Shown here: piece after piece, positions 23,841 through 45,116 of the stretch
Layout of the letters: every line of letters starts with the position of its first letter
How positions within the stretch are numbered: position 1 is the first letter of the stretch
The notes under the pieces: model-generated
Told to the model about the DNA's origin: nothing
The model's database searches: none
What the model saw: only the letters and a program-made list of their open reading frames with translations
Origin: Opitutus terrae PB90-1
GTDB lineage: Bacteria > Verrucomicrobiota > Verrucomicrobiia > Opitutales > Opitutaceae
Reading direction: 5' to 3'
NCBI RefSeq assembly: GCF_000019965.1
Contig: NC_010571.1
Coordinates: forward strand, 4,349,001-4,413,000
Length of the DNA stretch: 64,000 nt
Translations under genes and position numbers: made by a program

Positions 23841-23912
23841 CGCGCTGCCTTCAAGGCTATGGGAAGATACTCGCGGGCGAGACAGCGCCTTGAGGGTAAG
23901 GCGCGCCACCTC
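23841..23912. repeat. Family F hairpin element between YCII and sigma gene
   Basis: The stem GCGCCTT/AAGGCGC with loop GAGGGT (about 23885-23904) is preceded by a weaker complementary arm (CTGCCTTCAAGGC). The conserved GAGGNN loop and following CCACCTC match copies at 43722-43750 and 44914-44948. Confidence 0.6.
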
Positions 23913-23936
23913 CAACCGCCCACTGCGGCCTGAGGC

Positions 23937-43520: not shown

Positions 43521-43929
43521 GGAAGTTGGGAGGTCGGAGTTTCGAGTTTGGAGTTCAAGCCGCGCAAGCGCAGAAGCACCCTCCACGGCGCGAGGGCAGT
43601 CCAACCCGTCGACGCAGCGCGGATGCGCTTACTCAGGTGGAGCGCCTGGCTCTCATGGCGCTGTGGGGCGCAGGAACGCGTGAGCGTTTCGGCGGAAGCC
43701 TCATGGCTTCCGCTACCAAACGCGTTGAGGGCAACGCGCTTCACCTCGCGCCCGAAACTCTGAATTCGAAAGTCAAAACCGCACGCGCGCGGCCGGCCGT
43801 GCATGTGAGCAACCGGTGAGCAACTTTGCTCGCAAGTTATTCACCGCTTTTCACTGCGAACCGAATGTGAAAAACAATGGCTTCCGTTTCCCGCGCGGAC
43901 CCGCACGCTCGCCCCCGTTCCTTGATAGA
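43521..43929. other. Leader side of the large intergenic gap
   Basis: Upstream region of hrpB (minus) and of the candidate RNA (plus). Apart from the family F hairpins there is a locally AT-richer stretch near 43830-43880. No promoter box is clear. Confidence 0.35.
43636..43750. repeat. Family F hairpin cluster upstream of hrpB
   Basis: Three hairpins follow each other. The first, AGCGCC...GGCGCT, comes after AGGTGG. The second is GCGGAAGCC-TCAT-GGCTTCCGC. The third is CGCGTT-GAGGGC-AACGCG with a following TTCACCTC. The last matches the conserved loop and tail of the copies at 23885 and 44916, with a compensated stem. Confidence 0.6.
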
Positions 43930-44785
43930 ACAGTCGCAGTGCGGCGGCCTGAAAAACCCGCCGAGAGCGCGACTGGGATAATCCCGGGCAACCGGGGAAA
44001 GGTTGGCGGCAGCTGGTGCCGCCCTCCCCTTGCAACCGCGTCAGCGGATTGAAAGGCACATATCACCAGCTCCTCTGATCCGGAGTCGTGTCCGGTCAGT
44101 TCACACGAACCAGGAGCTGAGCGGCGAGCGGCGATTAGAAACCGCGCGCGAGCCGAGTCAGGCCCACAGGAAGTTTCGACCTGTGCGCCGACGCAGTTAC
44201 CCAGAGGGTTTTGGTTGCTACTGCGCAGACCAGAACGCAGTCGCGTTTCCCGGCGGGCCCACCCCGCCAAAAGGCCCCGCTCGTTCGCGCGAGCAGGGCG
44301 CGCAAGGGAAGCGTGGCGGCGGGGAGTGAGCGGGCCTGGCAAAGCTCGTCAACCTCCTCAAATTGGGGCGGCGTGAAAAACCGCGTCACCCCACTGCAAA
44401 AGCGAATGCAACCTGAGAGTTAAGAGGTCAGACCCGTAACGCGGGGCCAACGTCCGGCCAAAAGTCGGAGCCGTCCCCGTGGCAACGGTGCCGACGCGAA
44501 GGTAAGATTTGCAGGCGTGTCCGCACCACGTCCGGCGAGCCGCTTCCGGCAGGGAGCGTCCGAACCGGGCGAAGAGGCCTCACTCGATAGATCCCGATCG
44601 GAAACGGTCAGGACGGTCCCGCCATGAGACCGAGACATCCGCATGCCGCGGAGAGTGGCGTCGGGGAGCACACGGCCCGCGAAAGCGAGGCGCCCAACAG
44701 TGTGCCGACGGGAAAGAGCGCGTGGCGAACGCCCACCCCCAAGTTTGGCCCCGGGACCGCGAGGTTCCGGGGCCTTACTTTTTTT
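43930..44785 (+). ncRNA. Candidate long structured noncoding RNA ending at a strong terminator
   Basis: No convincing protein frame exists here. Strong local folds occur in series: GGCGGCA-GCTGG-TGCCGCC (44005-44023); a junction with closing stem CAGCTCCT/AGGAGCTG (44067-44074/44112-44119) around a 9-bp bulged hairpin CTGATCCGGA/TCCGGTCAG; GCCCCGCTCG/CGAGCAGGGC (about 44273-44299); GTCGG...CCGAC (about 44464-44495); CGGTC...GACCG (about 44611-44629); and 44660-44709 with GCACAC/GTGTGC and a CGC-GAAA-GCG tip. The stretch ends at the terminator 44747-44785. It does not match RNase P RNA, tmRNA, SRP or 6S RNA as I know them. The 5' end is uncertain. Confidence 0.45.
44747..44785 (+). terminator. 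Strong Rho-independent terminator with GNRA loop
   Basis: Stem GGCCCCGGGACC/GGTTCCGGGGCC (12 bp, one G-T pair), loop GCGA, then TTACTTTTTTT. No protein gene on the plus strand leads into it, which is the main reason to suspect an RNA transcript upstream. Confidence 0.85.
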
Positions 44786-44913
44786 GGCGCCTGCAGGCGG
44801 CGCGCGGGCAGTCTTTGGCGGGTTCGTCGGGCCGCATTCCGCGGTCCGTGGCGGAGGCGTCCGACTTTCGCCGAAACTACGTCGCCCGAGGCACTCACGC
44901 GTCCTGCTACAAG

Positions 44914-44948
44914 CCAGCGCCTTGAGGCCAAGGCGCTCCACCTCGAGC
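44914..44948. repeat. Family F hairpin upstream of typA
   Basis: AGCGCCTT-GAGGCC-AAGGCGCT (44916-44937), then CCACCTCGAG. Same loop class and 3' tail as the copies at 23885-23912 and 43722-43750. Confidence 0.65.
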
Positions 44949-45116
44949 CATCCCGCTTTCGCGGCCGCCGCCCGCACCCCCGGCTCCGCACGCCCGGCGC
45001 TGCACCCTTGTCTGGTGCCACCAAGCGTTTTGTGACATGGTCCGCTTAGGCCTTGCGTTCACTCCGTGCGCTCCGCACGTTCACCGGTTTTTCGAAGCCG
45101 GAACGCGGCCGCCACA

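Follow-up and report, generated by a model that had tools for sequence, protein, structure and literature searches.

The window analyzed here, a 64,000-nucleotide stretch of the Opitutus terrae PB90-1 genome, contains between the hrpB and typA genes a large non-coding RNA gene, the core of which (43976-44733, plus strand) almost certainly belongs to the known MISL RNA family, RF03079. A cmscan search of the whole window yielded this match at 537.9 bits (E 1.9e-162), about twice the gathering threshold of 274.6 bits, and no other match in the window reached the gathering level. The match is full-length (model positions 1-751), the consensus pairs are formed, with 159 of the 172 projected pairs being standard, and the nested helices are the same as those of the family; by contrast, a 5' extension, five predicted pseudoknots and a terminator lie outside the model line printed by cmscan. 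The gene is present in a single copy in the 5.96-Mb O. terrae genome. In a permissive scan of 43700-45100, the minus strand gave only weak matches, all below gathering, and no second RNA family produced a strong match. The original prediction had placed an independent non-coding RNA with its own terminator here and had held it to be distinct from all known RNA families; the Rfam search that it proposed refutes the latter claim and, with it, the novelty of the RNA, whereas the non-coding reading stands, supported by the Rfam match, covariation and a conserved terminator. A coding or decayed gene was considered and rejected, as none of the eight open reading frames over the MISL region matches a Pfam family at E 0.01 and the covariation is RNA-like. 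Within the limits of our searches, the novelty lies in the ends of the transcript, in the pseudoknots and in the architecture of the promoter; MISL itself is a catalogued giant RNA.

The region folds with a z-score of -6.1 on the plus strand and -4.0 on the minus strand (each against 20 shuffles), which, together with the open reading frames devoid of Pfam families, confirms the predicted structured, non-coding stretch of about 850 nt. For the analysis of covariation in relatives, likewise proposed earlier, the Rfam structure was projected onto the window (172 pairs) and pairs were counted on a sequence-only MAFFT alignment of 40 relatives (alignment A1). Both sides of the pair have changed in 122 of the 172 Rfam pairs, compared to 70.6 in shuffles, and 90.0% of the cells are paired, against 79.0% in shuffles and 36.5-42.0% in slid versions of the structure; none of the 500 shuffles reached the observed values. 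These counts show selection acting on the MISL fold. Two local features predicted from the window alone are recovered in part. The 8-bp stem (44067-44074/44112-44119) of a multi-branch junction at 44067-44119 is the covarying Rfam helix 4, but a pseudoknot within its arm, at about 44076-44110 (PKd, see below), had been missed. A hairpin with a GAAA tip is real around 44668-44705 (helices 24-26), but its outer part, GUCGG at 44660-44664 with CCGAC at 44705-44709, lies outside the Rfam structure and competes with another covarying pseudoknot helix (PKe, at 44656-44660).

Both ends of the predicted transcript extend beyond the Rfam core. At the 3' end, an intrinsic terminator conserved in relatives (44747-44785, plus strand) consists of a hairpin at 44747-44774, with a 12-bp stem and a GCGA loop, followed by a U tract. 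In 99 of 122 loci, the core is followed, after a median of 13 nt, by a terminator hairpin and T-rich tail, compared to 39 of 1000 random segments, and this conservation at a fixed distance corroborates the terminator of the original prediction. Upstream, conservation reaches past the Rfam start. Of the 118 flanks (320 nt each), 97 contain the motif TCYTTGA (127 of 2000 random 320-mers), at 57-59 nt from the core in 66 of these 97 loci, and the other 21 flanks mostly read GTTCATTGAAAGAAC in its place; a pattern widened after inspection fits 117 of the 118 loci (77 of 2000 random sequences), and the single miss, L053, reads GTTCCTTGATCGAAC by eye. In the window, this conserved element is the boxA-like, palindromic motif GTTCCTTGATAGAAC (43917-43931, plus strand), which marks the presumed transcript start; the family pattern GTTCYTTGAWARAAC has its only exact match in the O. 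terrae genome at this position. The start predicted earlier, 43930, comes closer to the probable 5' end, at about 43917, than does the Rfam boundary at 43976. Immediately downstream, a stem outside the Rfam model, P1 (43931-43975, plus strand; CAGUCGC at 43931-43937 with GCGACUG at 43969-43975), encloses a hairpin and is paired in the minimum free energy (MFE) fold, with z = -2.17. At a fixed offset, P1 retains at least five of six pairs in 71 of 117 loci (shuffles: mean 31, maximum 41) and fails in the remaining 46. A sigma-70-type promoter was not found in the window, and one is located directly before the motif in only 18 of 117 loci (control, 24 of 2000). Taken at face value, these signals delineate a stand-alone MISL gene whose RNA is predicted to span about 43917-44785, or roughly 865 nt, and the 5' extension would correct the boundaries of the MISL transcript.

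Beyond the nested fold, comparative analysis predicts five covarying pseudoknot helices, PKa to PKe, each crossing the nested structure; these were judged against the structure line of cmscan, which cannot show pseudoknots, and Rfam or the original description of the family may annotate them. All-pairs covariation and pseudoknot counts were obtained from 123 deduplicated sequences, which left out the partial cores L079 and L084, sequences containing N, near-duplicates (more than 85% shared 11-mers) and matches that were not full-length. The top of the all-pairs table consists mostly of Rfam pairs and includes non-Rfam pairs as well. We also screened for antiparallel runs of four or more pairs, each 85% standard, with parallel runs as the control; two or more covarying pairs were present in 21 of 101 antiparallel runs and in 3 of 86 parallel ones, and 13 of these 21 contain Rfam pairs, and five of the other eight are the pseudoknots. 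PKa joins GGUUGC (44213-44218) with GCAACC (44408-44413), with all six pairs formed in 103 of the 123 sequences and at most one mismatch in 118; PKb joins CUGCAA (44394-44399) with UUGCAG (44509-44514), fully paired in 93 sequences and with at most one mismatch in 113; PKc joins CUGGU (44013-44017) with ACCAG (44229-44233), fully paired in 122, and connects a hairpin loop to a single strand, with a one-pair clash with the Rfam pair 44011-44017; PKd joins UCGUG (44086-44090) with CACGA (44104-44108), fully paired in 104 sequences and with at most one mismatch in 113; and PKe joins CGCCA (44620-44624) with UGGCG (44656-44660), fully paired in 121 (all on the plus strand).

In the 123 sequences, the five helices show 56-108 double-change cells each, compared to 11-15 in the parallel control runs that have at least two covarying pairs and 35 in one run with a single such pair; three further non-Rfam helices, with two covarying pairs each, were dropped because their 10-11 double-change cells are at the level of the parallel control. 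Jointly, on alignment A1, 96.7% of the pseudoknot cells are paired (shuffles 91.0, slid versions 26.0-40.7) and 72 are double-change cells (shuffles 17.2), values reached by none of 500 shuffles. Taken one by one (n = 123), none of the five is matched by any of 300 shuffles in either pairing or double-change cells. Cruder statistics fail to set the pseudoknots apart. For PKa to PKe, respectively, 46, 55, 31, 185 and 12 of 300 shuffles have at least as many covarying pairs, and the observed number of pair types is reached in 224 of 300 shuffles for PKd and in 161 of 300 for PKe. With two covarying pairs, PKe is the least strongly supported of the five; slid versions of it reach up to 44 double-change cells, against the 61 observed. 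If correct, the five helices provide fixed constraints for three-dimensional modelling.

Among 150 genomes of the host's family, MISL is present in 79 (67 of the 120 of good quality) and lacking in 71, and is therefore dispensable. Wider sets, all of which overlap, gave 28 of 132 genomes for the order (20 over the cut-off), 41 of 188 for the class and 23 of 288 for the phylum. Given that 8 of the 28 order matches fall below the gathering score, the cut-off misses divergent members; the locus L203 scores 358 bits with nhmmer and yet is below the RF03079 gathering score. A pattern scan of GTDB contigs yielded at least 119 stretches, and our own profile, built from 28 sequences, confirmed 85 of the 119 listed; among the 85 confirmed matches listed, some of which are contigs of genomes already counted, 84 bear Verrucomicrobiota-type names, that is, names of genera that we take to belong to this phylum. 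The remaining one is a partial match (L130:7880-7992) at the edge of a retrieved stretch in a metagenome-assembled genome labelled Proteobacteria, for which misbinning or transfer is possible.

MISL is a chromosomal gene of Verrucomicrobiota that, in the host's family, usually lies between hrpB and typA. Of 37 loci fetched from this family, 32 are main copies, with hrpB upstream on the opposite strand in 29 and typA downstream on the same strand in 28; both neighbours are present in 25 and at least one in all 32. The recurrent position of typA could suggest that MISL is a cis-regulatory leader of typA (or hrpB), but we consider this the least probable of the alternatives, and a typA riboswitch or leader was rejected: a terminator separates MISL from typA, the distance between the two varies from 198 to 4657 nt, and neither hrpB nor typA was seen in the fetched stretches of 24 loci from other families or orders, some of which have short flanks. 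No single neighbour recurs outside lineages that could be proposed as a partner by context; by eye, the neighbours in other lineages include a cysteine-synthase-like gene and a glutamyl-tRNA-synthetase-like gene. Five genomes of the host's family carry two full-length copies, and the second, paralogous copy type forms a clade (L046, L047, L050, L052, L055 and L200; support 0.816) whose members are located in unrelated places.

The scattered locations of the second copy type, along with the presence of MISL on two IMG/VR contigs, might be taken to indicate a mobile or phage-borne giant RNA, akin to many GOLLD and ROOL RNAs, which are linked to phages. This is very improbable given the conserved synteny of the main copies, and a phage or plasmid element was rejected because MISL had no blastn match among the phage (50,697) and plasmid (72,556) records in a search sensitive down to about 65-70% identity. 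Both viral contigs are ssRNA-phage sequences with MISL at the phage 5' end (L215:62-813 and L233:12-476). In L215 (5357 nt), MISL (543.2 bits) is followed by a maturation-like frame that is below the Pfam cut-off, a coat-like frame without a family and a replicase (145 bits), and, by eye, the last approximately 20 nt of MISL are replaced with phage sequence. In L233 (2347 nt), model positions 158-622 (230.8 bits, under gathering) precede a maturation protein (98 bits) that carries the PHROG name 'head maturation protease'. Because ssRNA phages have no DNA stage, both contigs derive from RNA. They could be real recombinants, that is, phages that captured MISL, and the two different MISL sequences in the same MISL-then-phage orientation would be compatible with this; nevertheless, the breakpoints differ, and in both contigs MISL is cut short on its 3' side at the junction with the phage 5' end, which is what template switching by reverse transcriptase would produce. 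In addition, the two contigs share one IMG number series, and MISL is absent from all 79 other related phage contigs (80 kept of 295 relatives). Capture by phages is accordingly as remote a prospect as a mobile origin, and the two contigs are probably template-switch chimeras with abundant MISL RNA; if so, MISL is transcribed, and abundantly.

Upstream of the 5' motif, the window contains two DnaA-box-like 9-mers: TTATTCACC, with one mismatch to TTATNCACA, at 43837-43845 on the plus strand, 80 nt before the boxA-like motif, and a site at 43866-43874 on the minus strand (TGTGAAAAA on the plus strand, one mismatch), 51 nt before it. The latter offset is the commonest box position (32 loci), and that of the 43837 box is also common to relatives, from which this weak site was recognized. 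In the 200 nt upstream of the motif, 53 of 117 loci contain a perfect TTATNCACA (0.95 when shuffled; 24 of 1473 random sequences), and the number rises to 109 when one mismatch is allowed (15.8 when shuffled; 103 of 1473 random sequences). The respective counts are 16 and 55 of 60 for loci from the host's family and 37 and 54 of 57 for those from outside it; with one mismatch allowed, individual permutations of the motif were present in up to 43 of 60 and 38 of 57 loci, although the means were 7.4 and 10.8. The commonest upstream 9-mers extracted without any prior motif are GTGAATAAC, GGTGAATAA, AGTTATTCA and TGTGAATAA. Between boxes of the same orientation, a spacing of 11 or 12 nt predominates (39 pairs), which corresponds to a 2-3 bp gap, and double boxes are present in 39 of 117 loci but in none of the 111 downstream and none of the 112 more distant upstream control regions, which are less AT-rich (0.405 and 0.385 versus 0.49). 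In vivo, E. coli DnaA is reported to prefer a 2-3 bp gap between boxes (PMC11317965), and the MISL upstream regions resemble the double-DnaA-box promoters of that bacterium in the direct 9-mers with this gap (PMC11317965) but differ in that the MISL box is TTATTCACA/C and the double form is found in 39 of 117 loci and is absent from the window.

In the vicinity of dnaA in 10 relatives, all eight perfect boxes, spread over six of the 10 loci, read TTATTCACA; the host's own dnaA has no perfect box in the surrounding 2389 nt (including 409 nt upstream). A strict double-box pattern was found at 21 places in 12 of 19 relatives and never at the MISL locus in the five genomes among the 19 that are known to carry MISL. 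Because the window has two single one-mismatch boxes and no double box, we do not classify the window copy as a DnaA-regulated promoter, and the claim at the family level comes from the relatives. Among the paralogous copies, five of six have no box at all, so that the main copies are boxed in 108 of 111. Together, these observations suggest DnaA-linked control of the MISL promoter via DnaA-box-like sites. Location of MISL at a dnaA-linked replication origin was rejected, as MISL and dnaA are separated by about 0.16-2.5 Mb in 10 genomes; the GC skew, negative in all 16 segments of the window, also counts against an origin there.

The 5' motif itself resembles boxA. The E. coli rrnB leader reads TGCTCTTTAACA following a hairpin, and the Akkermansiaceae locus L128 has TGCTCTTTGACA, likewise following a hairpin, with 11 of 12 positions identical to the E. 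coli boxA; the boxA of L. pneumophila Lens is given as GTTCTTTAAAA (PMC7862264), and L057 (GTTCTTTGAAA) matches it at 10 of 11 positions. The window motif matches 8 of 11 positions of the L. pneumophila boxA and 7 of 12 of the E. coli one, neither of these references being the host's own leader. A hairpin before the motif was recognized by eye at eight loci outside the host's family (L065, L066, L076, L128, L136, L146, L151 and L178). BoxA is reported to be often located upstream of long non-coding RNAs and to occur upstream of CRISPR arrays (PMC7862264), and in rRNA, a NusB-dependent action of BoxA against Rho has been described (PMC4807359). Similarly to such leaders, MISL is a long untranslated RNA behind a boxA-like element that, at a few loci, follows a hairpin as in rrnB; in contrast to them, the MISL motif is palindromic in most loci.

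The palindrome, with all four GNTC/GANC pairs kept in 97 of 117 loci, is what would be expected if the motif were merely a structural hairpin or a palindromic protein-binding site, for example, of the LexA type, rather than a boxA, and if the TTATTCACA repeats bound another factor. We regard this alternative as unlikely, if by far the most serious of those considered. Eleven loci with GATC or GCTC, in which the palindrome is weak or broken, still keep TCTTTGA or TCCTTGA, and the MFE fold of the window leaves the motif unpaired; the Verrucomicrobia LexA site, TGTTC-N4-GAACA, has a spacing of N4, whereas the spacing here is N7; and the upstream boxes repeat directly every 11-12 nt and match those near dnaA. 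If the motif is a boxA, it would load NusB/NusE; within the window, both the DnaA boxes and the boxA match are weak.

The reading that we favor, with a probability of about 0.6, is that MISL is a stand-alone, trans-acting RNA with its own promoter, DnaA-linked control, an antitermination leader and a terminator. Under this scheme, DnaA would bind the paired upstream boxes, so that MISL synthesis would follow replication or growth state; transcription would start just before GTTCCTTGATAGAAC, which, as a boxA-type site, would load NusB/NusE; the polymerase loaded in this way would complete the long untranslated RNA without Rho termination, as it does on rRNA; and the finished RNA would act in trans as a folded molecule. 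We consider MISL more likely to serve as a housekeeping or growth-state scaffold than to regulate its neighbour typA. A broader and decidedly more tentative proposal is that Verrucomicrobiota possess, in MISL, a phylum-wide giant RNA, antiterminated through boxA like rRNA, expressed from a DnaA-controlled promoter and coupled to replication or growth, with the duplicated copy type having escaped DnaA control. Control by DnaA and boxA in combination is, likewise, less likely than not. If the tie to DnaA and to ribosomal-type antitermination holds, the role of MISL becomes testable through its expression over the cell cycle and growth states, and an unusual link from the replication initiator to a large structured RNA would emerge.

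MISL resembles the OLE, ROOL and GOLLD RNAs in being a large, highly structured bacterial RNA of unclear function; neither a sequence nor a covariance match to any of these three was found in the window, where only MISL reached any gathering score. OLE, ROOL and GOLLD are reported to form oligomers (PMC12286853), and MISL RNA is mentioned in the Ribonanza paper; a literature search for the identifier RF03079 returned no mention. The hairpins of one repeat family that the original prediction placed on both sides of the region do exist but lie outside the RNA: a REP-like palindrome, TTGAGGSCAASGCGCTYCACCTCG, is found at 43725-43748 and at 44922-44945, in both cases without a mismatch to one consensus, and a weaker third copy, with 3 mismatches, is located at 23890-23913.
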